Below are positions 34,710-50,675 of a stretch of DNA of 64,000 nt, piece after piece. Source of the stretch: Fusobacterium ulcerans ATCC 49185 (GTDB lineage Bacteria > Fusobacteriota > Fusobacteriia > Fusobacteriales > Fusobacteriaceae); the NCBI RefSeq assembly GCF_900683735.1, contig NZ_LR215979.1, positions 3,534,001 to 3,598,000 on the forward strand, read 5' to 3'. Position numbers and translations under genes: made by a program. How positions within the stretch are numbered: position 1 is the first letter of the stretch; every line of letters starts with the position of its first letter. The notes below the pieces were generated by a model. It had not been told where the DNA came from. It was given only the letters and a program-made list of their open reading frames with translations, and did no database searches.

Positions 34710-37700
34710 ATGAGAAAAAATGACATTGAAAAATCTTTAAAGAGATTTTTGAAAAGAAAGGTCAGTTATTCTCTTTCGCTTTTGATAGCCTTCATGATAA
34801 CAGGAGGAATATCTTTAGGTGCAGGAATAACAGCAGAGGAAATACAGGAAACTAAAAGCGATCTTTTAACTAGGATACAAACAGAACGAGAAGAAATAAA
34901 AAGAAAAATAGCAGAAAATGAAAGATTAATAAAAGAATATAATTCAGATTTTGTGGAACTTGTAAGAAAAGGAGACTTTTATTCAAAACCTTTATTCAAC
35001 AGTACACAGGTCTTTTTTACTTATCAGTATTTAGATAATGGAAAAGTGAAAGACAGAACAGATAAAGAATTTAAAGAAACAATAGACGCAATAAATAAAC
35101 ATTATGGAACAAAGAGTGGAAGAAGTCTGTTTAGAGCAACTGGAAATGTTGGAAAAGATAAAATAATGTCTGGAAATGGAGTAGCTGTAGATAATGAAGT
35201 ATTCAGAGAAACAATTGAAGTTGGAGCTAATATAAAACCAATTGAACCTGAACTTCCAATGATTAATCCAAGTGTATCAGTAAGTGTATCAGCACCAACT
35301 GTAAATCTTGGAGCATTGCCAGGAACAGTAAGTCCAACAATGCCAACAATGCCAACAGTAACAGCACCAGTGGTTGCAGTGCCAACAGCACCAAGTGGAG
35401 TAAATGTATCAGTTACAACACCAGGAGCTGTAGATAAAATAACAGTAACAGCACCAACAATAACAACACCAACAACACCAAGTGATAAAAATATAAATGT
35501 TACAGCACCAGCAACACCAACAGGATTTGAGCCAACTACTGTAACAGCACCAACAGCACCAAGTATCCCAGTTATTGTACCACCAACTATTCCATCGTTT
35601 GCTTCAAATGTTGTTTCAAATGGAAATGGAACAGCTAATCATATTGATACTAGAACTTTAAGTAATGGTGTTATAGAAATGGTTGCAATTAAAGGTGGAA
35701 ATTTTAATTTAGTCAGAAATACTGCTAATACATGGACATATGAATATACTGGATATAGTGGAGCTAATGTCTGGGCTATAGGAGATGCTAAAAGTGATCT
35801 TCATGCAGACGTTGGATCAGGATTGACATGGAGCGGTTTAGCTAGAACTTCTACAGCTTCTGGTGGATCTCAACTAGGGTTTCAAAAATTGGTTGGGTCA
35901 GGAGCTCAATCAACAATGTTAAGCAATGCAACATTTCTTTATACTAGAGGAATGGAAAATGCAACTTCTAACCTAGGAGAATTTGTACATATGGATATTC
36001 ATGGAGCTGCTGCACCAGCAGGTCAAAGAACAGGATTAGATACTGGAACTAATGGATTGAGTAATAAAACTGCCATTTTAGCGGCTTATGATGATGCTGG
36101 AAATAATATTAACTGGACTTATGGAACAACAAAAAATACAACAGCAGCTTCAGATAGATATACATGGATAAATAGTGGAAAAATAGTTATTGAAGGAGGA
36201 AACACTTCTCTTACTAACCATTATGACCATAGTTCAGCAGGAAGAAAAGCTATAGCTATGAATACAGGGGAGGTAATCTTTCAACCATATTTTAATGGAA
36301 CTAATTATTTTCAAAAATATACTTCTGTATTCGTAATGTCTCTTGATGGAACTGGAGTACATCATATAATGTACAATGGACCAACAGGAAGCATAAAAAC
36401 ATATACTCAAACAGCTTCTATTTTCCTATCTGGATCTAGTGGTGCAGGAAGACCATTGAGTATTGTAAATAGAGGAACGTTAGAAATGTATGGAGAAAAT
36501 TCAGCTGGAATTTTCCTAAAAACAGGTTCTGATAATGATTTATATTTTACTACTGATAACTTTGCTTTCAATAGTTCAACTAATACTGTAACTGCTGGAA
36601 GTTATAAGCCATTGAAGTTATTTGGAGATAAAAGTATAGGTCTATATGGGGCTGCTACAGATGGTTCTACAATTGGAAATTTTGCAGTAGATATTGGAGA
36701 AACTGGCAAAGGAAATCAGAATTTTACAACTTCTACAGCTTCTGGAACTACTAATGGAACAAACTTAACAGATTATAATATCAATCCAAGTGGTGGAACA
36801 AATAAAAATATAGAAGGATCTTTTGGAATAATTGCCAATGCACCTATGAAGCTTACAAGCCACCAGATAAGAATATATGATAAAACTGAAAATAATGTTG
36901 GAGTATATCCTAATGCTGATGTTGCACTTAATCTTGGAGGAGGAGAAATTTCTTTAAATGGTGGAAATACAAATATTGGTATTTTAATTAATGGTAAGGG
37001 AAGTGTAACTTCTACAGGTAATGTTTCAGTAACAGGTGGAGTAAAAAATATGGCTGTTTATGTTAAAGGAGGGACTTCTGGTCCTGCAGAAACAGTTTCA
37101 GTAAATAAAGTAACAGCTACAAATACAGAAGATTCAGTAGTTGTTTATGGAGAAAGTGGAGCAAAGATTACAGCAAAGGAATTAAATGTTGTTTCAAAAG
37201 TAGGGGCAAATCCAACAACTGGAAATGGAAAAGATACAGGAGCTGCTTTTGCTTCAGGAGCTAATACTGTTATTACAATTGATAGAGCAGCAACTCCTGG
37301 AAGTGCTAATATATCTATAACAGGATCAAAATTAGATGATGCAGACAGATATGTTGGATTTGGAGTTATGGCAACAAATGGTGGAGTTGTTAATGCTAAA
37401 AACAACTATATAAAGGTAGTTAATGGATCAACAGCAGCAGCATCTATAGGGGCAAACTCTAATATAGATTTATCAGGAGGAACAGTAGAATTTGATGGTT
37501 CAGGATATGCTGTTTATTCAGATGGAGTAGGAAAAATAAATTTAAGTAATTCTAAAATGATTCTTAAAGGAAAAGCAACAGCTTTTGATGTAGATATGCT
37601 GGCAGGAATACCACCTGTAACATTAGATGCAAATTCAAGAATTCATGTAGAATCAAATGATGTTGTTGTCTTTAACCTAAAAAATGCAACAGGACTAAGT

Positions 37701-40700
37701 ACAAGTGGATTAGAAGCTAGTATAACTACAGCTCTTGGATCAGCTCTTGGAGGAGCAAATCTTTCATCTCTTATAGTTGCAGGTGGAGGTATTGACAAAT
37801 ACAAAATAGCTGCAGTTGATGGTGGAACAATTAGTATTGGAAATTTAGATAAAACTGGAATAGGTGCAGGAGGGGAAACTCAGGCTCAAGAAGATGGAAA
37901 CTTCTACTATAACAGATTCTTAGGACAAAGACTTGTAGCAACAGCTACAAACAGTACTATTTCTGCCGTTCTTAATAATACTCAGGCTTCTAAATTTAAC
38001 AACCAAGTAGTTGGATTGGAAATGAACTCAAGTAAATTGGCTACTTCTAATGCAGAAGCAGGAATAAATTTAGTTAACTCAACTATTATAGCTGATAGAG
38101 ATGACAGCGGATCAGGTGCAATAGGAGCTTTCATAAACTATGGAGTTGTAACTGTAGATGGAACTAGCTCAATAAAGGTTGAAAAAGAAAGTAATGCAGC
38201 AAATGCTCAAGCAGTTGGTATTTACGCAGTAAATGGAAGTAAAGTTGATAATGCTGGAGAGATTGAAGTAGGTGGAAATCAATCTATAGGAATTCTAGGG
38301 CTGGCATATAGAGAAGATTCTTCTAGTATGCCAATAATTGACGAATTTGGTCCATCAGCACTGGGACAAGGTAAAGTTAATATTATTAATAATAAAAATA
38401 TAGCTCTTAATGGAATAGGAAGTATAGGTATCTATGCAGATAATAATAAACCAACAGGAGTAAAAGGGGATGTACTTGTGACAAATACAGCCTCTGGAGT
38501 GATAACTGTAAGAAACTCAGATAGTATTGGTATCTATGGAGAGAAAGCTACAATTTCTAACCTTGGAAAAGTATCAGTTGGGGATGGAGGAGTAGCTATA
38601 TATGCTAAAAATGGAACTGAAGTAACAGATCTAGGTACTTTGGATCTTGGAGCTGATGGAGTAGGGGTTATGGCTGATGGGACTTCTGATATAACTGCAA
38701 CATCTGTAACTCTGACATCAAATAATACTGGAACTCTTGGAAAAACTGGTATCTTCTATAAAGGGGACTCAGGGACAGAAAGTAAAACTATAGGTGTAGC
38801 AGTAAATGCTTCAGCTTTTGATAAAGGGACTGCTATATATGTTGAAAATATGAATATCACTTCTTCGGGAACTTTAAATATAGGTAAGGAAGGAGTAGGT
38901 ATTTTTGTGAAAGGAAATTCAACTCAAACAGGTACAAATACAGGAACTATTGATCTTACATCTGGAAAAACAGGTGCAGTAGGTATGTACACAAAAACTG
39001 CCAATATCCTTAATAATACAAGTGGAATCATAAATGTAAATGACACTTCTCAAATAGGTATGTATGCAGAAGGAACAGGAAACAAAGCAACAAATAAAGG
39101 AACAATAAATTTAAATGTAGACAGTTCTACAGGTATTTATGTAAAATCAGGGGCTATTACAGATATTGATACTAATGGTATAGTGTTTGCTGGAAAATCA
39201 AGTGTAGGAGTTTTTGCAGAAGGTGCTCAAGTAAACTTCAAAGATAATTTGATTCTTGCTAATAATAATGAAAATAAAAATATCTATGTTTATGGTAAAG
39301 GTGCTACTGTAGGAATTGATGCAGGTAAAACAATAACTGTAAATGGTGTAGCTACTCCATCAACAGTAGGGAATAAAACAGTTGGAATATATCTTGAAAA
39401 TGCTGGTACTGCAAGTACATTTAATGGAACTGCAGGACAGCTTGCTGTCACAAATGAAGCAGTAGGTATCTATTCTAAAGGTAATAATACTCTAAATGTA
39501 AATGTTACTGCTGCTGGAGAAAAAACTACAGGAGTATTCATAGATGGAGCTTCTACAATAACAGGAACTGTAACTGCTACAGGATCTCCAACTGTTGGAG
39601 CAGTAGGAGTATATGGCAGTGGTGGAGTTGTAACTATAGGCGCAGGAGGACTTACTCTTAATACAAACTCTGGAAAAGGAACAGGAATGTACCTTACAGA
39701 TGGAGCTTCTGCTGCTGGTGGAACAATAACTGTAAATAATACATTAGGTGTTAAAAATATAGGGGTATATTACAGTAAAGGAACTACATCTGGAACTGTA
39801 ACAAATAATTCTGCTGTTTCTCTTGTTGGAAGCGACAGTATAGGAATATATGCAGCTGATGGAATAACACTTGTAAATAGCGCTAATATAACATCAACAG
39901 CTGGACAAAGTGACAGTATAGCTTCATATGTAGGAGGAGGGTCACAATTAACTTCAAATGGAACTATCGAATTATATGATACAGCTGGTGGAATAGGAAT
40001 ATATACAGAAGAAGGAAAAGGAGTAAATTCTGGGACTATAACATTAAATGGAACAGCAGGTTCAATGGTTGGAATGGTATCAGAAGCTCAAACAGGAAAA
40101 GTAGCTTCTATAGAAAATACAAATACAATTACTGTAGGAAATAATCTGGGAATGTATGTAGCAGGTGCTGGAATAAGTTCAGGAAAAAATACAGGAAGTA
40201 TAGTTGCTACAACAGGAACAGGAGTATATGTAGATGGTGGAGGAAACAGCTTTGATGGAACTGGGGGAACTATTACATCAAATGCAGTTGGAATCTATCT
40301 AAAAAATACAGATACTAATAAAATAACAGCAGGAACTTTAAATATAGCTTCAGGAGGAGTTGGAGTATTTGGAGAAAATGCAAAAATAGATTTTGCAGTA
40401 AATGTTACAGGAACAGGAGCAGTAGGAGTTGCAGCTAAAACTAACTCTGTAATATCTGGAAATATAACAACTGGACAGGATTCAGTTGGAGTATACCTTC
40501 TTGATGATACTGTTGCATTTAATGGTGCTAATATAACAACTGGAACAAATAATTTAGGAACATCAGTAGGAATATTGTTTGATGCAGGAATAACTGGTGC
40601 ATACACTATGAATAATGTAAGTGTAAATGCTAAAAATGGAGTAGGTATATATCTAGGTGGAGCTGGAATGACTCTTAATCACAATGGAAATGTAACTACT

Positions 40701-43700
40701 GAAAATGGAATTGGAATATATGTTCCTACAGGAACTACTTTAGCTACTGGTACATCAACTATGAATATTAATGGTGGAACTGGAGTATATGTAGATGGAG
40801 GAACTGCCAACCTTGGAACAGCTGGAAATCTTAAATTTAATTTCCTAGCTGGTGGAGGAATAGGAGTATTCAACAATGGTGGAACTCTTAATCTTGGAAA
40901 CAACATAACTGTAACTGGTTCAGGATCACTTGCAGCTACTTCAAATGGAAGCCTTAATTCTACTGGAAACCTAAACATAGGAGAAGGTGCTACTGGAATG
41001 CTTGGAACATATGATTCAGCAATGACAGGACCTCAAAGTATATCAAATACAGGTGGAACAATAACAGCTGCATCTGGAGGAATAGGCCTTGCAGCAATAA
41101 AAGGAAGTACTAATCCTGGATTCCCAGTAACAATAACTAATACAGGGACAATCACTGCATCTGGAGTATCAACTACAAATACACCATCAATAGGAATTTA
41201 CACAGATGTAGCAGATATAGCAAATACTGGAAATATTAATGTGGGAAGCAAAGGAATTGGAATATACTCTAACCATAATGGAGTTATGACATCAGTACAA
41301 AATAATAATATGACTATGACAGGAACAGATGGAATAGGAGTATATATTAAAGGAGCAACAAATGGACTTGTATCAAATAATATAAATTCAACAGGTTCAA
41401 GAAATACAGGGGTAGTTCTTGAAGGAGTAACATCAAATATAAATGCAGGAACTATTAATTTAAATAATGAAAGTGTAGGAGTATTGGCAACATCAGGAAC
41501 AACTTCTACAATAAATGGAACTATCTCAGTTGGAGCTTCAAGCAGTACTAAGAGTGCAATAGGAATAGTAGCAAATGCAGGTTCTAATGTAACTGTTGCA
41601 GGAACAGCAGCTGTTGCAACTGGAAATGGAGGAATAGGAGTATACGCTGAAGGAGCTGGAACAACAGTTACAGTTGCAAATACAGGAAATATTTCAGTAG
41701 GAACAGATGGAATATATATGTATTCTAAAGATGCTACTCTGAATTTCACAGGAAATATCACGGCTAATAATCAAATAGGAATAGTAGCAGATGGTGGAAC
41801 TATCAATGCAATGGGAGCATCAACTATAACTGTTCAAAATGGAGGAATAGGAGCATATGTAAAAAATGCAGCTCCAGCATTTGGAACAACAACAATAGCA
41901 GTACAGGCAGGAAATAGTTCTGAATATTCTATGGGAGTTTATTATGATGGAGTGGCAGCACTTGGAGCAGCTCCAATAATTACTCAAACAGGAAGCTATA
42001 CTATTGGAATGGTGTTGAATAATTCAACAGGAACAACTGCTGGAGGAATTTCTATTGGAGGAACAGGAACAACAAATCAGGTAGGAGTAATGGCAAAAGG
42101 AAACTCTAATCTTACAGTGGCAGGACCTGTGACAGTAAGTGGAGGAGATAATAATATTGGTGTATATGGTGAAAGCAGTGCAATTACAGTTAATAGTAAT
42201 ATAGCAGTAGCAACACCAGGAACAGCAGCACCAAGTGGTGATCCAATGAAATACTCTTCAGTGGGAGTATTTATGGATAAAGGGTTATATGCAGGAACAG
42301 GAAATGTAACAGTTGGAAATAATAGTATTGGAATCTATGGAAAAGATTTAAATGGAGGCTCAATTACTCAAACTGGAACTACAATGACTGCAGGAGATAA
42401 TGGAGTTGGTGTATATGGAACTGGTACAGGTACTGGAACAGAAAATATCAATTTGACAATGACTGCAGGAATAACACTTGGAAATAATAATTCTATAGGA
42501 GTGTATGCAAAAAATATAAATTCAAATGTTACAGGAGATATATCTACTGGAACAGATACAAGTATAGGGATTGTAAGCGAAGGTAATGGAAATATAACAT
42601 ATACAGGTGATATGGCTATTGGCAACAAGTCAGTGGGTATCTATAAATTTGATGGAACAGGAACTATAACTACATCAGCAGGTAATTGGAATATAGGAAA
42701 TAATGGATATGGAATATTTCTTAAACAATCAGCAGAACAAAAAGTTACAATCAATAATAATGCTGATATGAGTTTAGGAACAGCATCAGTAGGAATATTC
42801 TCTAATGGAAAAAATGAAGTAAATAATACTGGAAATATAATAGTAGGAATGACAGATTTAAATGGAGAAACTCATGAGAATGTTCAAAAACATCTTAACT
42901 CAGTAGGTATATATGTTACTGGTGGAACAACAGCAACAAGTTCTGGAACTATCACAGTAAACTATGATCATTCAGTAGGAGTTTATGCAAGTGGAACAGG
43001 GACAAATTTCACAAATACTGGAACTATGAATATAGATAATGGTGGTGTTGGTATTATTGTAAGAGATGGAGCAGTAGCTGTAAATGCTGTAGGAGCTAAC
43101 ATTAATCTAGGAGGAACACTGGCAGCATGTGGAGCAACAACAGTAGGAATGTCAGCAGGAATGGGATCTACTATTATTAATAATGGAACTATTACAGTAA
43201 ATCAGGGAGTAGGAATGCTCGTAGTAACTGGAGCAACATTTAAAAATAATGGAACTATTATAGTAAACAATGGAATAGGAATAGAAGGAATTGGAAGTAC
43301 AGTAAATGCTGGACACATAATAGTAAATGGTGGGTCAGCTGTTGGATCAGGCGGTTTATCTACTGCTAGTGTAGGAGCTATTGAGATAAAACCAGATGGA
43401 ACTATTAAAATCAATGGAAACTATACTTCTATTGGAGGAACTCTTTCTACAGCGGGATCTATCATAGTAGATGGAGCTTATGTAGATGTAACAACTGGAA
43501 CACCACTATTTAATGCACACAGTGTAAGTGGAGAAGTAAATATACTTCCAAACTTTGCTTCAACAGGAAATGGTCGTACATATGAAATAGAAGGTTTTGT
43601 AAATACAGCTATGGGAACAATAACAGGAACAAAACTTACTCCTATAACATCACCTATGTTTGTAGGGAAAATAACAGATGATGGAAAACTAGTGTTAGTA

Positions 43701-44849
43701 GTAAGAGATTATACAGGATTGACTTTAGGTGAACAATTTAATGAACTGTATAAAGGGTTGGATAACTTAATTGATTATACTAATGGAAAAGGAAAAGATG
43801 CTCAGATTCTAAAAGAACTAAATGAATATCTAGGTCATTTCCATGGAGATGAATTTGAAAGAGAAGCTTCAAAGAAATTAGCTGAAACAAGAGGAGATAT
43901 TTATGCAACTATTCAAGGAAGAATGCAGGATATCAACAGAGCTTTTGATAACTCTTTCTACGAACTTGAATCTTCATATAATCTGACTAAAGACAGCAGT
44001 AAATACAGTGTTATCTATACTGATGGAAACTATAAAGATGGAACATTAGGAATAGATGACTATGATTACAAGGTAATGGGACTTCTTTATATGAAAGAGA
44101 AAGAGGGAACAGAATATGGAAGTAAATATGGATATACATTAGGATTTGCAGGATCAAAGTTTGATTTTGATGATGGCGGATCAAAAGAGGATGTATACTC
44201 ATTAAGAGTAGGAGCGCATAGAGTTAAAAATCTAAGTGAAGAACATAAAGTATCATGGTTATCAAGAATAGAACTTGGATACAACAGACATATTGCTAAG
44301 AGAAAGCTTGAGTTGGATAAAACTTATGAAAATAAGGGAGAGTACAATACTTACTCTGTAGCATTTGATAACAGACTTACTAAAGTTATGTATACAGACC
44401 TTTCTAGACAATTAGATGTATATGCTGATTTAGATTTAGAATATGGAAAAATAGATGACTTCAAAGAAAGTGCTGGAAGCAAAGGTGGACTGGAAGTACA
44501 AATCAAAGATAATGACTACTTCAGTGCACAAGCAGGAGCAGGAGTTAAAGCATCACAAAGAATCTATGCAGGAAATGATATATCTGTAAAAGTAACAGCA
44601 GATGTAAAATATGCATATGAATTTGGAGATAACTATGATGGAAACAAAGCAAGAATTAAAAATGGAGGGGAAGGGTATTACAGCCTAATCACACCAGAAG
44701 AGAGAGAAGGAAAATTAACAGGAAAAGTTGGACTTACAATAGAAAAAGCTAACCACATGGGAGTAACATTTGAAGTGGAAGCAGCAGATGAAAATCATAA
44801 AAATGATTCATCAATCAAGTATGGAGTAAGATTCAATTACAAATTCTAA
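34710..44849 (+). CDS. Giant RadD-like type V autotransporter adhesin, 3379 residues
   Basis: The N-terminus MRKNDIEKSLKRFLKRKVSY with a membrane-targeting segment to about residue 38, then a helical stretch (40-75), is the fusobacterial autotransporter-associated N-terminal domain. Residues about 185-298 are Thr/Pro/Val-rich. The passenger (about 300-3080) is a very long beta-helix with scores of short G-V/I-G-V/I-Y/F units separated by 20-45 residues. Residues about 3085-3379 form the outer-membrane barrel, ending FNYKF. Size and design match RadD/Fap2-class adhesins that mediate coaggregation and host binding. It lies in a probable operon with coiled-coil and FadA-family genes. The partner molecule cannot be predicted. 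Confidence 0.92.
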   Translation: MRKNDIEKSLKRFLKRKVSYSLSLLIAFMITGGISLGAGITAEEIQETKSDLLTRIQTEREEIKRKIAENERLIKEYNSDFVELVRKGDFYSKPLFNSTQVFFTYQYLDNGKVKDRTDKEFKETIDAINKHYGTKSGRSLFRATGNVGKDKIMSGNGVAVDNEVFRETIEVGANIKPIEPELPMINPSVSVSVSAPTVNLGALPGTVSPTMPTMPTVTAPVVAVPTAPSGVNVSVTTPGAVDKITVTAPTITTPTTPSDKNINVTAPATPTGFEPTTVTAPTAPSIPVIVPPTIPSFASNVVSNGNGTANHIDTRTLSNGVIEMVAIKGGNFNLVRNTANTWTYEYTGYSGANVWAIGDAKSDLHADVGSGLTWSGLARTSTASGGSQLGFQKLVGSGAQSTMLSNATFLYTRGMENATSNLGEFVHMDIHGAAAPAGQRTGLDTGTNGLSNKTAILAAYDDAGNNINWTYGTTKNTTAASDRYTWINSGKIVIEGGNTSLTNHYDHSSAGRKAIAMNTGEVIFQPYFNGTNYFQKYTSVFVMSLDGTGVHHIMYNGPTGSIKTYTQTASIFLSGSSGAGRPLSIVNRGTLEMYGENSAGIFLKTGSDNDLYFTTDNFAFNSSTNTVTAGSYKPLKLFGDKSIGLYGAATDGSTIGNFAVDIGETGKGNQNFTTSTASGTTNGTNLTDYNINPSGGTNKNIEGSFGIIANAPMKLTSHQIRIYDKTENNVGVYPNADVALNLGGGEISLNGGNTNIGILINGKGSVTSTGNVSVTGGVKNMAVYVKGGTSGPAETVSVNKVTATNTEDSVVVYGESGAKITAKELNVVSKVGANPTTGNGKDTGAAFASGANTVITIDRAATPGSANISITGSKLDDADRYVGFGVMATNGGVVNAKNNYIKVVNGSTAAASIGANSNIDLSGGTVEFDGSGYAVYSDGVGKINLSNSKMILKGKATAFDVDMLAGIPPVTLDANSRIHVESNDVVVFNLKNATGLSTSGLEASITTALGSALGGANLSSLIVAGGGIDKYKIAAVDGGTISIGNLDKTGIGAGGETQAQEDGNFYYNRFLGQRLVATATNSTISAVLNNTQASKFNNQVVGLEMNSSKLATSNAEAGINLVNSTIIADRDDSGSGAIGAFINYGVVTVDGTSSIKVEKESNAANAQAVGIYAVNGSKVDNAGEIEVGGNQSIGILGLAYREDSSSMPIIDEFGPSALGQGKVNIINNKNIALNGIGSIGIYADNNKPTGVKGDVLVTNTASGVITVRNSDSIGIYGEKATISNLGKVSVGDGGVAIYAKNGTEVTDLGTLDLGADGVGVMADGTSDITATSVTLTSNNTGTLGKTGIFYKGDSGTESKTIGVAVNASAFDKGTAIYVENMNITSSGTLNIGKEGVGIFVKGNSTQTGTNTGTIDLTSGKTGAVGMYTKTANILNNTSGIINVNDTSQIGMYAEGTGNKATNKGTINLNVDSSTGIYVKSGAITDIDTNGIVFAGKSSVGVFAEGAQVNFKDNLILANNNENKNIYVYGKGATVGIDAGKTITVNGVATPSTVGNKTVGIYLENAGTASTFNGTAGQLAVTNEAVGIYSKGNNTLNVNVTAAGEKTTGVFIDGASTITGTVTATGSPTVGAVGVYGSGGVVTIGAGGLTLNTNSGKGTGMYLTDGASAAGGTITVNNTLGVKNIGVYYSKGTTSGTVTNNSAVSLVGSDSIGIYAADGITLVNSANITSTAGQSDSIASYVGGGSQLTSNGTIELYDTAGGIGIYTEEGKGVNSGTITLNGTAGSMVGMVSEAQTGKVASIENTNTITVGNNLGMYVAGAGISSGKNTGSIVATTGTGVYVDGGGNSFDGTGGTITSNAVGIYLKNTDTNKITAGTLNIASGGVGVFGENAKIDFAVNVTGTGAVGVAAKTNSVISGNITTGQDSVGVYLLDDTVAFNGANITTGTNNLGTSVGILFDAGITGAYTMNNVSVNAKNGVGIYLGGAGMTLNHNGNVTTENGIGIYVPTGTTLATGTSTMNINGGTGVYVDGGTANLGTAGNLKFNFLAGGGIGVFNNGGTLNLGNNITVTGSGSLAATSNGSLNSTGNLNIGEGATGMLGTYDSAMTGPQSISNTGGTITAASGGIGLAAIKGSTNPGFPVTITNTGTITASGVSTTNTPSIGIYTDVADIANTGNINVGSKGIGIYSNHNGVMTSVQNNNMTMTGTDGIGVYIKGATNGLVSNNINSTGSRNTGVVLEGVTSNINAGTINLNNESVGVLATSGTTSTINGTISVGASSSTKSAIGIVANAGSNVTVAGTAAVATGNGGIGVYAEGAGTTVTVANTGNISVGTDGIYMYSKDATLNFTGNITANNQIGIVADGGTINAMGASTITVQNGGIGAYVKNAAPAFGTTTIAVQAGNSSEYSMGVYYDGVAALGAAPIITQTGSYTIGMVLNNSTGTTAGGISIGGTGTTNQVGVMAKGNSNLTVAGPVTVSGGDNNIGVYGESSAITVNSNIAVATPGTAAPSGDPMKYSSVGVFMDKGLYAGTGNVTVGNNSIGIYGKDLNGGSITQTGTTMTAGDNGVGVYGTGTGTGTENINLTMTAGITLGNNNSIGVYAKNINSNVTGDISTGTDTSIGIVSEGNGNITYTGDMAIGNKSVGIYKFDGTGTITTSAGNWNIGNNGYGIFLKQSAEQKVTINNNADMSLGTASVGIFSNGKNEVNNTGNIIVGMTDLNGETHENVQKHLNSVGIYVTGGTTATSSGTITVNYDHSVGVYASGTGTNFTNTGTMNIDNGGVGIIVRDGAVAVNAVGANINLGGTLAACGATTVGMSAGMGSTIINNGTITVNQGVGMLVVTGATFKNNGTIIVNNGIGIEGIGSTVNAGHIIVNGGSAVGSGGLSTASVGAIEIKPDGTIKINGNYTSIGGTLSTAGSIIVDGAYVDVTTGTPLFNAHSVSGEVNILPNFASTGNGRTYEIEGFVNTAMGTITGTKLTPITSPMFVGKITDDGKLVLVVRDYTGLTLGEQFNELYKGLDNLIDYTNGKGKDAQILKELNEYLGHFHGDEFEREASKKLAETRGDIYATIQGRMQDINRAFDNSFYELESSYNLTKDSSKYSVIYTDGNYKDGTLGIDDYDYKVMGLLYMKEKEGTEYGSKYGYTLGFAGSKFDFDDGGSKEDVYSLRVGAHRVKNLSEEHKVSWLSRIELGYNRHIAKRKLELDKTYENKGEYNTYSVAFDNRLTKVMYTDLSRQLDVYADLDLEYGKIDDFKESAGSKGGLEVQIKDNDYFSAQAGAGVKASQRIYAGNDISVKVTADVKYAYEFGDNYDGNKARIKNGGEGYYSLITPEEREGKLTGKVGLTIEKANHMGVTFEVEAADENHKNDSSIKYGVRFNYKF

Positions 44850-45155: not shown

Positions 45156-45581
45156 ATGATAAAATTAACAAAAAAAGAACTGGAAGCTTTAGGGGAAAAT
45201 AAGGATGCGGTGGCTCAGCTTTTAGTAAGAAAAGCTATTCTTGCAGAAATGGAAAAGAAAGAATACACAGAAGAGGAAAAAAAATATCTTGAGGAAATGA
45301 AACTTAATATGGAGATTGAATTCTATTTAAATTCAGTAGCTCAAAAAACAGTTCAAATATATGATTACGAACTTTTAGAGGTATATAAAAACAATACTGA
45401 GGTATTGAAGGATAAAAATACTGTAGAAGTATATCCACAACTTCAACAGGCATTATTCAATCAGAAATTAGGAGAAGAAAAAGTAAAAGTCATAAATGCA
45501 CTAGTTGAAAAATATAAAATAAATGATGTGTTAAAAGAATATATAAAACCAGAAGATGAAAAAAATAGGGGGGAAAGATGA
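45156..45581 (+). CDS. Unknown 141-residue helical protein in adhesin operon
   Basis: Not confidently recognised. The protein lacks a signal peptide and is predicted to be helical and charged, with DAVAQLLVRKAILAEMEKKEY near residue 18, EFYLNSVAQKTVQIYDYELLE near 50 and VYPQLQQALFNQKLGEEKV near 90. The layout faintly resembles the non-catalytic chaperone part of SurA/parvulin proteins. I chose ATG 45156, six bases from GGAGG, rather than 45153. Its end overlaps the FadA-family start as ATGA, showing translational coupling and suggesting a shared role. Confidence 0.55.
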   Translation: MIKLTKKELEALGENKDAVAQLLVRKAILAEMEKKEYTEEEKKYLEEMKLNMEIEFYLNSVAQKTVQIYDYELLEVYKNNTEVLKDKNTVEVYPQLQQALFNQKLGEEKVKVINALVEKYKINDVLKEYIKPEDEKNRGER

Positions 45582-45940
45582 AAAAAATATTAGTGGGATG
45601 CTTCTTAGCAGTATCAGCAATATCATATTCAGCAACAGATGTAATGTCAACATTTGAGCAGCTTGAACTTAATCTTCAGCAGTTAGAAGCTGAAGAAAGA
45701 GCTATGTATAATCAAAGAAAAGCAGAGGCTGAAGAAGCTGAAAAAACTCTGGCAGCTCAAAGAAAAATGTATGCAGAGATTTCAGAAAAAGAGAAGAGAA
45801 TTTTAAGTGTAAAAGATAATAAATTCTATAAAACTCAATATCAGGAATTAGCAAAAAAATATTCAGAAGCTAAAAAAGAATTGGAAAAGGACATGAAAAG
45901 ACAGGAAGAGATAATAAGCATATTTGAAGCTATTAGATAA
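45578..45940 (+). CDS. fadA: FadA-family adhesin
   Basis: A 120-residue secreted coiled-coil protein. The signal peptide ends near residue 18 (ISYSA). The mature part matches the FadA hairpin: QLEAEERAMYNQRKAEAEE, a turn, then KFYKTQYQELAKKYSEAKKEL, corresponding to FadA RFYKSQYQELASKYEDA. FadA of F. nucleatum forms filaments of antiparallel helices that bind cadherins. This copy ends at FEAIR and lacks the LRAGN tail I recall for FadA. It is coupled to the upstream gene by an ATGA overlap. Receptor binding by this paralogue is not established. Confidence 0.88.
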   Translation: MKKILVGCFLAVSAISYSATDVMSTFEQLELNLQQLEAEERAMYNQRKAEAEEAEKTLAAQRKMYAEISEKEKRILSVKDNKFYKTQYQELAKKYSEAKKELEKDMKRQEEIISIFEAIR

Positions 45941-46142: not shown

Positions 46143-46174
46143 AAAGCTGTGAACAGGAAAATTCACAGCTTTTT
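46143..46174. terminator. Bidirectional terminator between adhesin operon and modification cassette
   Basis: AAAGCTGTGAA pairs with TTCACAGCTTTTT across an 8-base loop. It lies between the rightward adhesin genes and the leftward methyltransferase operon. Confidence 0.75.
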
Positions 46175-46194: not shown

Positions 46195-46830
46195 TCAAGA
46201 ATATTTTATTTTAGATATATTTTCCAGAAGAACTGATAATCTTTTGTGATTTAATTCTATACCTACAAAATTTTTATTGTTAAGATAGGAATTTAAACCT
46301 ACAAGTCCTCTTCCCATGCAAATATCTCCAATACAGTTATATTCAATATTTTTACATATAAATTCTATTATTTTTTCTTCATCCATACCATCTAATTTTA
46401 GATTAAGCCTTTTTTCACTTCCTTGAACTATATAACAGATATTTTTATTGTTATTATAATATGTACTATTATAAAAGGTTACATATTTAAATAGTTTTTT
46501 CATTTCCATTATAAAATCTGCAAGGTATTCCTTCCCTATCTCAACAAAACAAAGTTTTGGTTTTATTTCACTTATTCTTTTAAAAAGAATTTTATAGAAT
46601 TCTTCATATGTTTCTAATCTTGGTATTAATCTAGCTTTCATATAAAAGGTATTAAGATTTCTTAAATTCCAAGGGGGATCAATAAATAGTATATCTGCTT
46701 TTTTCATAAAATCAGGAAGTTCATCAGTAAGATCATGGACCATAATGATATTTTCATCTATATTGTATGGAACAGCAGATTTTATTGGGTAACTTATATA
46801 AGAACCACCATATTCCCATTTTTCAATCAT
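46195..46830 (-). CDS. Putative DNA adenine/cytosine N-methyltransferase (DPPW type)
   Basis: A 211-residue protein with methyltransferase landmarks in beta-class order. The catalytic motif FIDPPW is at about 49-54, then IGDICMGRGLVGL resembles the SAM-binding F-x-G-x-G motif near 165, and NFVGIELNHKRL gives the following strand. DPPW is used by N6-adenine and N4-cytosine methylases, including MT-A70 proteins. No restriction nuclease lies beside it. The start is ATG 46830, six bases after AGGAGG; the gene overlaps the upstream ParB-like gene by 8 bp. It is the last gene of a tightly overlapping four-gene operon, so its role is probably tied to the IbrA/IbrB-like pair. Confidence 0.7.
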   Translation of the reverse strand: MIEKWEYGGSYISYPIKSAVPYNIDENIIMVHDLTDELPDFMKKADILFIDPPWNLRNLNTFYMKARLIPRLETYEEFYKILFKRISEIKPKLCFVEIGKEYLADFIMEMKKLFKYVTFYNSTYYNNNKNICYIVQGSEKRLNLKLDGMDEEKIIEFICKNIEYNCIGDICMGRGLVGLNSYLNNKNFVGIELNHKRLSVLLENISKIKYS

Positions 46831-47359
46831 CATCAACCTCCTGCATTTCCCAGCTTTTTGAATAAGCTTTATTTTTAAAAATTTCTGCTATACCTGTTAT
46901 TTGTTTTAATCTGAAGACTTCTTCCTCTTCCATTCCTAGAGTATTGGCTATTTTTTCATCTTCAAGGCCTTTTTCATATAGTTCTCTTACTAATTCTCCC
47001 ATAAGCTCAACCTGATGAACACCTCTAGCTCTATTAAACTGAACAGTTGCTGCCATTCTTTTCTCTATATTATGTTCTAATACAATTATTGGAATTTCTT
47101 TAGCCTTAAAATATTTTTTAAAAATTTCATATCTATGGAAACCATCAATTATTATATATTTATCTCTAGCTTTGTCATAGATAGTAACCACAGCAAAACA
47201 GAAGCCATTATCTAATATAGATCTTTCAAGTAATTCCATATTATTTATAGCCACCTTGTTGGGATTGTATTTATTTGGTTCTAATTTGTGTATAGGAACT
47301 ATAATAGGATTCATAACAGGAAGTGCTACATTTCCTTTTTTTGTTTTTATATATTTCAT
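46823..47359 (-). CDS. ibrB: IbrB-like ParB/Srx-domain protein
   Basis: A 178-residue protein with a ParB/sulfiredoxin-like domain (about residues 10-110). IIVPIHKLEPNKYNPNKV is the typical start and YIIIDGFHRYEIF the signature loop, then AATVQFNRARGVHQVELMGELV (split) and a helix-turn-helix-like segment EDEKIANTLGMEEEEVFRLKQI. The RARG-H and SKSWE pieces closely recall IbrB of E. coli. IbrB with IbrA is needed for expression of Eib autotransporter adhesins. I chose ATG 47359 because it forms an ATGA overlap with the upstream stop and has GGAG nine bases before it; ATG 47374 is an alternative. Confidence 0.78.
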   Translation of the reverse strand: MKYIKTKKGNVALPVMNPIIVPIHKLEPNKYNPNKVAINNMELLERSILDNGFCFAVVTIYDKARDKYIIIDGFHRYEIFKKYFKAKEIPIIVLEHNIEKRMAATVQFNRARGVHQVELMGELVRELYEKGLEDEKIANTLGMEEEEVFRLKQITGIAEIFKNKAYSKSWEMQEVDDD

Positions 47360-48495
47360 AGTATTGTTCTCCATTTTTTCAACTTTTCCAATCTTGGATC
47401 TTTTTTATTGTCAACTGGCAGATTATTTTCATAATCATTTAGTATGAGCTGCTTACATTGTTGTCTTGCTACGTATTCATTTTCAAGATGTTTTTGAAAT
47501 CGTTTTTCAAATATCCATTTTTTATTTTCATTGGGATATGTTTTTAATAAAAAATCTCTATACTCCTTCCATGAATTATAATTTTTAGGAAGTTTGGTAC
47601 ATCTCAGCATTTTGCTGTCTTTCCCATAAAGATTTCCAATACTTATTCCAGCTATTCTTTTAAGAAGTTTATCATATGTTTTAGGTTCAAATTCAGGAAG
47701 GTCCACTAGAGCTTTAAAACTTTTTTCATGTATTAGAGATGAAACTCTTATTTCTCTTAGTCCAGTTCCTTTTTTATATTGATAATCATAGATTTTAGAG
47801 TATTTTAATTTTTCATTGTAAATATACTTCCATACATCATGAAAATTCCAATCATAAATAGGATAAAAAGAAAAATTTTCATACTTTAATTTTGTTCCCC
47901 AATAAACAAGAGTTCCATTTATATTTACTGGATTTTTTACTACTGCACCCCAACGATTTGGGCTTTCTGTAGCTCTCAGACCAACTAGGAAAACAGTATC
48001 ATTTTTCAGCTTTTGAAAGTTTTCTATTACATCATAGAATCCAAATCCTTTGTTTTTATCTCTTATAGTTTCAGTTTTTATATCCCATGGTTTATTTTGT
48101 ATAGAATATTTTTCTTTTGTTCTCATCCAGAGATGAGATTTGTTTTTTTCCCAGCATTTCAGCTGTCCTTCTGTGATGCTTGTTGCATTGGTAAGATTAA
48201 ATTCTATTTGAAGCCAATAATTTATAGTATTTTGAGGAAAGAGATTCATCAAATACTTTATCTGTTTTATTGTACTGCTATATACTACCTCTTCATCCAG
48301 AAAAAATAATCCTACTTTTCTATTTCTTTTAACTGCTTCTTTCAATACAAGATGAGCAAGGACAGTACTATCCTTTCCTCCTGAAATAGAAACACAGATA
48401 TTTTTGAAATTATCAAAAAGAAAACTTATTCTCTCTTTTGAAGCTTCAAGAACATTTTTATTGGTATACATCTGCTTTATCATAGATTTCTTCAC
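47356..48495 (-). CDS. ibrA: IbrA-like PP-loop / PAPS-reductase-family protein (DUF3440)
   Basis: A 379-residue PP-loop ATP-pyrophosphatase-family protein. YTNKNVLEASKERISFLF leads to the nucleotide loop SISGGKDSTVLAHLV (SGGKDS at 38-43). FFLDEEVVY follows, then QLKCWEKNKSHLW-type PAPS-reductase features, and a C-terminal DUF3440-like part with LREIRVSSLIHEKSF and LLKRIAGISIGNLYG. This is the IbrA pattern. PP-loop relatives adenylate substrates, reduce PAPS, or place sulfur in DNA (DndC); the chemistry of IbrA is unassigned. GTG 48495 has AAGGA five bases away, giving a 38-bp overlap with the upstream gene; ATG 48471 is possible. Confidence 0.82.
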   Translation of the reverse strand: MKKSMIKQMYTNKNVLEASKERISFLFDNFKNICVSISGGKDSTVLAHLVLKEAVKRNRKVGLFFLDEEVVYSSTIKQIKYLMNLFPQNTINYWLQIEFNLTNATSITEGQLKCWEKNKSHLWMRTKEKYSIQNKPWDIKTETIRDKNKGFGFYDVIENFQKLKNDTVFLVGLRATESPNRWGAVVKNPVNINGTLVYWGTKLKYENFSFYPIYDWNFHDVWKYIYNEKLKYSKIYDYQYKKGTGLREIRVSSLIHEKSFKALVDLPEFEPKTYDKLLKRIAGISIGNLYGKDSKMLRCTKLPKNYNSWKEYRDFLLKTYPNENKKWIFEKRFQKHLENEYVARQQCKQLILNDYENNLPVDNKKDPRLEKLKKWRTIL

Positions 48496-49345
48496 ATCTT
48501 TCCTTCCATTCTATATAACTCTTTGCATAAAATTTATCAACAGGTAAACTTGTTGATAGAAATTCAAATTCTTTAATATTTTTCATAGTTTTTAGAAAGT
48601 CATTGAAATTTAATCTTCTATAATGAAAGTCAACTACAAGTATTTCTGATTCTTCAGATATTTTATTGATATTAGTATATGAAACAACATTTTTAAATCG
48701 AAATCTGTTGTTTCTTGCAACAGCAGTTTTTTCTTTTATATGTTCTTTTTTAAAATCTCCAGTTAATAGATGAAGATTTCTGGGAATTGTATCTGGGTCT
48801 TGATTTCCAAGAAGTTTAAATAAAAGATTTTTTTCTCTTTCATATCTTTCTCTCATAAATCTTGTTGTTCTTACATTTTTTATTTTCATGGGAATAGTTC
48901 TCTTTATCATTTTGATATCTTCTGCCTTCAAATGACTGAATTCAAATGGTTTTCCTTTATATTTTCCCTTATTTTCAAAATTTAAAAGTATCATAAAATC
49001 TTCATAGTTTTCTATTATAGGAAAATATTCAAAGATTATTCTATGAGGACTTTGATTTAAATAATGATGTGCACAATTATATGTTAATTTATTTCTATTA
49101 CTTGCTCTCATACATTCATCTATTATGATTAAAGAATCTTCAGTTATTTCTTCTAATAACCTATAGAAATACTTATATTTTTCAATATCAGAATATTCAA
49201 TATATTCAATATTTTTGTTCCCAATATTATATTTAGTATAAAATTTTTTAAAAAAGAAACAATAAATTTTATTAATATTTTTATTATTTAAGTATTTTAT
49301 AATTTCCTGTTCTTTTTGTTCCTTGGTTAATCCAATCCTAATCAT
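48458..49345 (-). CDS. Unknown 295-residue protein heading the IbrA/B-methylase cassette
   Basis: Not recognised. The protein is lysine-rich, soluble and starts at ATG 49345 behind GGAGG. LIIIDECMRASNRNK near residue 73 resembles a Walker B/DExx motif, but no Walker A loop is visible. Other notable stretches are RTTRFMRERYEREKNLLFKL near 160 and NILVVDF-type ILVVDFHYRRLNFNDFL near 245. It may be a nucleic-acid-dependent NTPase-like or scaffold protein, but that is guesswork. Overlap with the next gene by 38 bp shows it is part of the same operon, and its position first suggests a stoichiometric role with the IbrA-like protein. Confidence 0.6.
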   Translation of the reverse strand: MIRIGLTKEQKEQEIIKYLNNKNINKIYCFFFKKFYTKYNIGNKNIEYIEYSDIEKYKYFYRLLEEITEDSLIIIDECMRASNRNKLTYNCAHHYLNQSPHRIIFEYFPIIENYEDFMILLNFENKGKYKGKPFEFSHLKAEDIKMIKRTIPMKIKNVRTTRFMRERYEREKNLLFKLLGNQDPDTIPRNLHLLTGDFKKEHIKEKTAVARNNRFRFKNVVSYTNINKISEESEILVVDFHYRRLNFNDFLKTMKNIKEFEFLSTSLPVDKFYAKSYIEWKERCEEIYDKADVYQ

Positions 49346-49901: not shown

Positions 49902-50675
49902 ATGAAGTATGCAGAAGAGGGAGTTCAATATCATATAGGAATAAGAAAAGGTGATGTAGGAAGATATGTAATACTTCCTGGAGATCCAAAACGTTGTGAA
50001 AAAATAGCAAAATATTTTGAAGATGCAAAACTTGTGGCAGATAATAGGGAATATATTACATACACTGGATATCTTGATGGTGTGAAAGTCAGTGTCACTT
50101 CTACAGGAATAGGAGGACCATCAGCAGCTATAGCCTTGGAGGAGCTTGTAAAATCAGGAGCAGATACATTTTTACGTGTGGGAACATGTGGAGGGATGCA
50201 GACTGAAATTATGGGAGGAGATATAGTGATTGCTACTGGAGCTATCAGAATGGAAGGAACTAGCAGAGAATATGCTCCAATTGAATTTCCAGCAGTGGCA
50301 GATATAGATATAGTAAATGCTCTTATACAGGGAGCAAAGGATTTAGGAGAAAAATATCATACTGGAATAGTTCAATGCAAAGATTCATTTTATGGACAGC
50401 ACGAACCTGAAACAAAGCCAGTAAGTTATGAATTGATGGATAAATGGGAAGCATGGATACGTCTAGGATGTAAAGCTTCAGAAATGGAATCAGCAGCACT
50501 TTTTGTAGTGGGAGATTATTTAAGAGTTCGTGTAGGATCAGCATTCTTAGTAGTAGCTAATCAAGAAAGAGAAAAAGCAGGACTTGAAAATCCAGTTGTC
50601 CATGATACAGATGCAGCCATAAGAGTAGCCATTGAAGCTATACGTAACCTTATAAAAACAGATATGCCAGAATAA
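49902..50675 (+). CDS. udp: Uridine phosphorylase
   Basis: A 257-residue cytoplasmic nucleoside phosphorylase that splits uridine with phosphate to uracil and ribose-1-phosphate. [14 protein letters not shown] near residue 23 binds phosphate, [15 protein letters not shown] near 70 and [11 protein letters not shown] near 91 are family motifs, and [11 protein letters not shown] near 190 contacts the ribose. It begins a five-gene operon with cdd, deoD, deoB and deoC, all separated by 10-20 bp, converting nucleosides to glycolytic intermediates. Confidence 0.94.

Follow-up and report, generated by a model that had tools for sequence, protein, structure and literature searches.

A four-gene cassette of Fusobacterium ulcerans as a possible phage-derived nucleic-acid modification module with alternative SNF2 helicase and type IV CRISPR partners

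The chromosome of Fusobacterium ulcerans ATCC 49185 (complete genome, 3.84 Mb) was analyzed over a stretch of 64,000 nucleotides (contig NZ_LR215979.1, positions 3,534,001 to 3,598,000; hereafter the window) in which four intact, overlapping open reading frames (ORFs) on the reverse strand encode a protein of an unnamed family, an IbrA-like PP-loop protein, an IbrB-like ParB protein and a DNA methyltransferase (genes 1 to 4; Table 1). We found that the four proteins co-evolve and travel as a block, which is paired in its relatives with either an active-looking SNF2 translocase or the Csf complex of a type IV-B CRISPR (clustered regularly interspaced short palindromic repeats) system. Our favored explanation, to which we assign a probability of roughly one half, is that the cassette descends from a phage module for nucleic-acid modification, whose front ends for targeting are interchangeable, and was domesticated in a Fusobacterium lineage. 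An earlier note, made from the letters of the window alone, had proposed a DNA-modification, epigenetic-control or defense system of no described type. That interpretation is partly supported by the present analysis; the phage origin, the exchange between SNF2 and type IV-B partners and the domestication without either were invisible from a single window.

Relatives came from two sets, IbrA-like loci in viral contigs and loci that gene 1 itself retrieved from genomes and viral contigs, which merged to 55 distinct loci; co-occurrence was counted over those with enough flanking sequence. Throughout this set gene 1, IbrA and ParB stood in the same order on one strand, with IbrA present in 49/49 loci and ParB in 48/48. 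A methyltransferase lay within the locus in 40 of 41 cases, downstream in 36 and upstream in four more, the upstream ones scoring weakly (30–63 bits). The earlier note had named rare co-occurrence of the genes as an outcome that would refute it, and the survey gave the opposite; because gene order is conserved across 55 distinct loci, chance clustering is excluded. Carriers were mostly phages or prophages (among them Firmicutes prophages and viral contigs), with some plasmids as well, and terminase, integrase and endolysin genes were found nearby. In two loci (L076:5637-7303 and L091:11436-13102), a second, divergent IbrA-ParB pair directly followed the first to form tandem pairs.

Gene 1 is the founder of its family. 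No match to it was found among phage protein families, zero matches were returned by tblastn against annotated phages and by a single-sequence scan of viral contigs, and an alignment-based scan recovered 57 loci. Pfam detected weak SNF2 similarity only (SNF2-rel_dom, 0.0011, under the cut-off). An AlphaFold2 model built from 19 relatives (predicted local distance difference test score, pLDDT, 87.3) was closest among solved structures to Swi2/Snf2 ATPases, with a Z score of 18.2, 285/295 residues aligned and a root-mean-square deviation of 3.5, and Foldseek also retrieved the Snf2 fold (E 1e-6). Gene 1 is thus predicted from the model to have a complete two-domain Snf2 fold, with both RecA-like domains placed as in Snf2. 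Its ATPase motifs are eroded, and the position of motif II reads NE in 36 of the 55 members, DG in nine and DE in seven. The DExx string on which the earlier note had drawn is indeed present but is a relic, since GK[ST] is absent and DE occurs in so few members. Judged from its motifs alone, gene 1 encodes a putative degenerate pseudo-helicase and not an active DExx enzyme.

The identities first given to the other three proteins held up under profile searches. Gene 2 matched PF01507 (PAPS_reduct, 5e-16) and PF11922 (DUF3440, 3e-11), both above the cut-off, as well as phrog_2302 (6e-84). Its ATP-pyrophosphatase loop (PP-loop) is kept in every relative, and no invariant cysteine column was found across 52 IbrA relatives (best column, 45/50). 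Gene 3 matched phrog_2159 (2e-55), TIGR00180 (1e-6) and, slightly under the cut-off, PF02195 (ParB_N, 4e-5). Gene 4 has the permuted motif order of beta-class N6-adenine methyltransferases such as DpnA and MboIIA, in which DPPW (motif IV) precedes motif I (GD.CMGRGLVG); among 41 relatives, DPPW was kept in 37 and a motif I of the GD.CMGRGL type in 36. Its best match to a profile of a solved structure was a DpnA-type adenine methyltransferase (0.0013), from which it is very divergent.

Two kinds of genes were found beside the module. An SNF2 helicase of ~470 residues lay upstream in 35/55 loci, usually directly adjoining (Pfam SNF2, 6e-18; Helicase_C, 9e-12). Walker A was kept in 30 of these 35 helicases, motif II in all 35 and motif VI in 33, so that the partner, with all motif sets largely kept, looks active. 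In most helicase-type loci the helicase is itself preceded by a protein of ~380 residues (phrog_16123, a function-less annotation with no Pfam match; L014:4604-5761 and equivalents). In two loci (L028:3145-5607 and L103:5013-7475) the helicase ORF extends to 820 residues and reads as interrupted by an intein directly after the Walker A lysine ('MGTGKALPLDTKIVTTLGMVEMRNISVGD').

In at least 13 distinct loci, profiles identified type IV CRISPR effector genes flanking the module and often overlapping it. PADLOC confirmed type IV genes in seven of them (L018, L022, L026, L045, L059, L064 and L066). One example is L045, from Caldicoprobacter and with a terminase nearby, where PADLOC identified Csf1 (5e-45), Cas11 (5e-37), Csf2 (3e-93) and Csf3 (6e-60), and where a CysH-like PP-loop protein encoded after the csf genes overlaps gene 1. 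Such a CysH-like protein accompanied the csf genes in module relatives such as L018, L020, L045, L059, L064, L066, L068, L079 and L084. The csf genes were downstream of the module in L066 and L084, and parts were rearranged in L020, L022 and L026; a further Csf3 (5e-37) was found in L033, a close relative of L027.

Helicase and type IV genes occurred together in none of the 55 loci, and seven, mostly at contig ends, had neither. In the IbrA tree, type IV and helicase loci are interleaved, requiring nine parsimony changes, of which at least three are forced by well supported branches; several deep forks lack resolution. For example, L064 and L068 (type IV) group with L058 (helicase) with support of 94/96. 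These results show, from tree and gene content, that the module's partners have been exchanged between the SNF2 helicase and the type IV genes. Between L064 and L058, IbrA was 85% identical, ParB 76%, the methyltransferase 67% and the pseudo-helicase 54%; that the pseudo-helicase is the most divergent part is what may be expected of a partner-contacting component.

The converse, that type IV-B loci always carry the module, was considered and rejected, as IbrA and ParB were present in 3/10 annotated loci and in ~8/36 viral loci. The 36 Csf2-anchored viral loci, which are partly redundant, included four with the full module and four more with IbrA and ParB only. Among the loci viewed, IbrA and ParB were near csf genes on plasmids of Actinarchaeum, Natrinema and Rhodovastum, and were not near them in Rhodococcus, Gordonia, Xylanimonas, Mycobacterium, Thermococcus and a Skermania phage. 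The module is therefore a minority companion of type IV-B, and most type IV-B loci are without it.

In four Fusobacterium species the cassette occupies one chromosomal site, flanked by deoD and by a region with a RadD-like autotransporter, and four sister genomes that were examined have no cassette at deoD. The window IbrA is sister to the IbrA of a Peptostreptococcus prophage locus of the helicase type (support, 99/98). In the window the neighbors are deoD, cdd and the autotransporter, and csf1, csf2 and csf3 are not in the locus. The cassette-type helicase was not found in the host genome, where general SNF2 proteins only (~920 and ~1040 residues, about 25–27% identity) were recovered, and that such host helicases may stand in for the lost one is a conjecture; a Csf2 search of the genome, which had no positive control, gave no match. 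No separate CysH-like gene was noticed beside the cassette, the locus being the extent of that inspection. Across the four chromosomes all four genes had ratios of non-synonymous to synonymous divergence (dN/dS) of 0.036–0.104 at dS of 0.5–1.0, indicating strong purifying selection similar to that on the neighboring deoD. Since all four genes are under such selection, the Fusobacterium module lacking both partners is very probably functional. A second copy, comprising IbrA, ParB and methyltransferase genes, is carried by the F. varium plasmid AP017970; its IbrA is 92% identical to that of the window. The plasmid copy is recent (dS 0.01–0.05 from the chromosomal copy) and shows weaker constraint, based on few changes. 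We also observed that deoD (window 49902-50675) has a dS of just 0.066 between the window genome and a second Fusobacterium genome (G003), while the adjacent cassette has a dS of 0.7–1.0, which suggests recombination across deoD between the two.

Taken as a whole, conservation of the catalytic motifs in IbrA (52/52), ParB (51/51) and the methyltransferase argues that the module is an enzyme assembly. In the favored explanation, the partner, whether SNF2 translocase or Csf complex, would find or open the DNA target, and the pseudo-helicase, without helicase-type ATP hydrolysis, would serve as an adaptor, either by holding duplex DNA or by docking on the partner. ParB would load onto DNA in a manner dependent on nucleoside triphosphates, IbrA would spend ATP on activating (AMPylating) a target group with no sulfur transfer, and the methyltransferase would add or complete the mark, which may protect phage DNA or alter transcription. 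In Fusobacterium the module would be an epigenetic or regulatory system that acts without a front end of its own, presumably on host DNA. An ATP-dependent, sulfur-free modification of DNA is favored because IbrA has no invariant cysteine and because the same point has been made for the CysH of type IV-B, which was argued to lack the catalytic cysteine and for which AMPylation of nucleic acid was proposed (PMC8175902). The earlier note was right to regard DNA modification or epigenetic control as likely functions.

Several observations weigh against this explanation. Both front ends are absent from the Fusobacterium copy, so the model drawn from phages may not carry over. Gene 4 is small, at 213 residues, scores under the Pfam cut-off and, unlike DpnA and MboIIA, has no recognized target-recognition domain. 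The AlphaFold2 model of IbrA was poor (pLDDT 64.8) and was not used for the active site. Lastly, the IbrAB proteins of Escherichia coli reportedly raise expression of the Eib autotransporter (eib activation), which is a transcriptional effect and no proof of modification.

This last point leads to the alternative that survives best, although we consider it unlikely: that IbrA and IbrB are a DNA-binding regulatory pair, or transcriptional co-activator, that performs no DNA chemistry and controls the adjoining RadD-like adhesin. DNA binding is common among ParB-like proteins, phage annotations name the IbrA/IbrB pair a "co-activator of prophage gene expression," and a RadD-like giant autotransporter gene and a FadA-like gene adjoin the cassette in all four Fusobacterium chromosomes, with a giant autotransporter gene ~6 kb away from the plasmid copy in F. 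varium. However, the PP-loop and the methyltransferase motifs are kept across phyla, beyond the needs of pure DNA binding, and the phage loci inspected showed no adhesin gene next to the module. In the window, the RadD-like protein (34710-44849; 3379 residues) scores 1613 bits against NCBIfam RadD, under the cut-off of 3500, and a gene for a small secreted coiled-coil (FadA-like) protein (45578-45940) converges on the cassette, as does the RadD-like gene.

A role in defense or superinfection exclusion, by which the module would mark or inactivate incoming DNA and the Fusobacterium copy would shield its host, is somewhat less probable again. Prophages and plasmids carry the module, a CRISPR complex is its partner in about a quarter of the loci, and systems of the BREX and Dnd type repeatedly contain SNF2 helicases, ParB and PAPS-reductase proteins (PMC12839542). 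The module nevertheless holds no nuclease or other effector, PADLOC reported no system beyond weak methyltransferase and DndC matches, and many carriers are phage genomes in which the module lies by lysis, integration or terminase genes, so that self-protection fits equally well. It is quite improbable that DNA is not the substrate and that IbrA, CysH and the methyltransferase act on Csf-bound RNA or make a nucleotide signal. Type IV-B complexes do hold heterogeneous small RNA (PMC7937560, PMC8175902), and nucleic acid modification or second messengers have been listed among the options for CysH (PMC8175902), but 35/55 loci have an SNF2 translocase with no RNA-binding Cas protein, and ParB and the DPPW methyltransferase point towards DNA.

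The earlier note had also offered DndC, which inserts sulfur into DNA, as an analogy for IbrA, and this is weakened. IbrA does resemble DndC profiles over ~70 residues (PADLOC, 5e-8; NCBIfam, 24.2 bits against a cut-off of 290.4). Since no cysteine is invariant among the relatives, DndC-like phosphorothioation or base thiolation is nevertheless very improbable; no DndD, DndE or SspB-type partner is in the cassette, and a DndC profile search of the host genome gave no match, the same search giving matches in other genomes that were all under the cut-off. Least credible of all is that the cassette is a prophage remnant in decay that no longer has a function, a reading that the purifying selection on the chromosomal copies already refutes. 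Although the phage origin, the loss of the helicase and its upstream gene and the truncated gene 1 of the plasmid copy would fit it, the four frames are intact in four species and about as constrained as deoD.

Table 1. Features of the window cassette (window coordinates) and of related loci (coordinates of the named locus or accession)
Feature	Position	Strand	Remarks
Gene 1, putative pseudo-Snf2 helicase, 295 residues	48458..49345	-	AlphaFold2 model and structure matches
Remnant of Walker A in gene 1 (G5...K11)	49313..49333	-	G5 in 55/55, K11 in 52/55, no GK[ST]
DE of the DExx string in gene 1	49115..49120	-	hhalign places it on the active helicase's motif II
Gene 2, IbrA-like PP-loop (PAPS-reductase family) and DUF3440 protein, 379 residues	47356..48495	-	PF01507, PF11922, phrog_2302
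PP-loop SGGKDS of gene 2	48367..48384	-	Kept in 52/52 relatives
Gene 3, IbrB-like ParB/Srx-fold protein, 183 residues	46823..47374	-	PF02195, phrog_2159, TIGR00180
DGFHR motif of gene 3	47132..47146	-	DG.HR kept throughout (51/51); GERR absent
Gene 4, small permuted (beta-class-like) N6/N4 DNA methyltransferase, 213 residues	46195..46836	-	Motif IV ahead of motif I
DPPW catalytic motif of gene 4	46669..46680	-	Motif IV
Terminator-like hairpin, bidirectional	46143-46172		Just past gene 4, closes the unit
Type IV effector genes (csf1, csf2, csf3; some with cas11, cysH) by the module	L045:5755-9023, L018:4410-7163, L026:2562-6221, L064:5741-8995, L066:12118-16341		Prophages and viral contigs
Second copy on F. 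varium plasmid, IbrA-ParB-methyltransferase	L108 / AP017970 65027-67430		Gene 1 cut to its last ~50 residues

An ORF check confirmed all four genes, their strand and their extent (49345-46195), and the cassette is one overlapping unit that ends at a terminator-like hairpin (Table 1); eight terminator-like sites were counted in the region, against 0.5 in shuffled sequences. The overlaps first described (38, 4 and 8 bp) correspond to internal start codons (ATG) at 47359 and 46830, whereas the longest starts give 38, 19 and 14 bp. Because most phage relatives of the Firmicutes type keep the 19-bp overlap of IbrA and ParB, ParB probably starts at 47374. An Rfam scan of the locus returned zero RNA elements.

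Among the nearest known systems is the IbrA/IbrB pair of E. coli and its phages, in which a DUF3440 PP-loop gene likewise adjoins a ParB/Srx gene. The E. coli plasmid and phage pairs were caught by the same family profiles (IbrA, 177–184 bits; ParB, 155–160 bits), but E. coli IbrA is ~28% identical to that of the window, and in the two loci viewed the pair stood without this pseudo-Snf2 gene or methyltransferase alongside. Triads of SNF2 helicase, IbrA and ParB in Streptococcus and Flavobacterium phages have a helicase that matches the module-helicase profile (206–234 bits), yet neither a pseudo-Snf2 gene nor a methyltransferase of this family was found there. Type IV-B systems (csf1, cas11, csf2, csf3, cysH) share with the module's relatives the csf genes and usually CysH, whereas the window holds no csf gene. 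Dnd/Ssp and BREX type 4 also have a PAPS-reductase-family PP-loop protein, and DndH and PglZ are reported to contain Snf2-like domains that are inactive (PMC12839542); the module differs in having no invariant IbrA cysteine, no desulfurase and no Dnd/Ssp or Brx/Pgl partners. As the earlier note had stated, no restriction nuclease was found among the cassette genes, to which these profile searches were confined. The cassette is accordingly not a Dnd system, a recognizable restriction-modification unit or itself a type IV-B locus, and is of the IbrA/IbrB kind within a larger, widely conserved assembly.

The first reading of the set as matching no described type agrees with the literature covered, where work on IbrA/IbrB, DUF3440 and PAPS reductase with ParB and SNF2 or methyltransferase genes gave no account of the module, and published accounts of type IV mentioned neither ParB nor a methyltransferase as a partner of the csf operon; the principal type IV classification (10.1093/nar/gkz1197) lay outside this coverage, and an earlier mention is possible there. 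What type IV-B systems and their CysH do has been an open question, and one review considers CysH to be probably the key (PMC8175902). In a bolder form of the favored explanation, which we put forward tentatively, the module may be the missing chemical half of some type IV-B systems: a Csf ribonucleoprotein or SNF2 translocase would direct a complex of pseudo-Snf2 protein, IbrA, ParB and methyltransferase that writes an ATP-dependent, sulfur-free DNA mark, and the writer would have been retained on the Fusobacterium chromosome as an epigenetic system. The use of one module with either a Csf complex or an SNF2 translocase offers the testable idea that both are interchangeable means by which one chemistry is brought to DNA. 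The Fusobacterium copy, being compact, with four genes and no front end, would make that chemistry easier to study alone, and a family context is gained for IbrAB, which has been annotated for some two decades with no mechanism attached.

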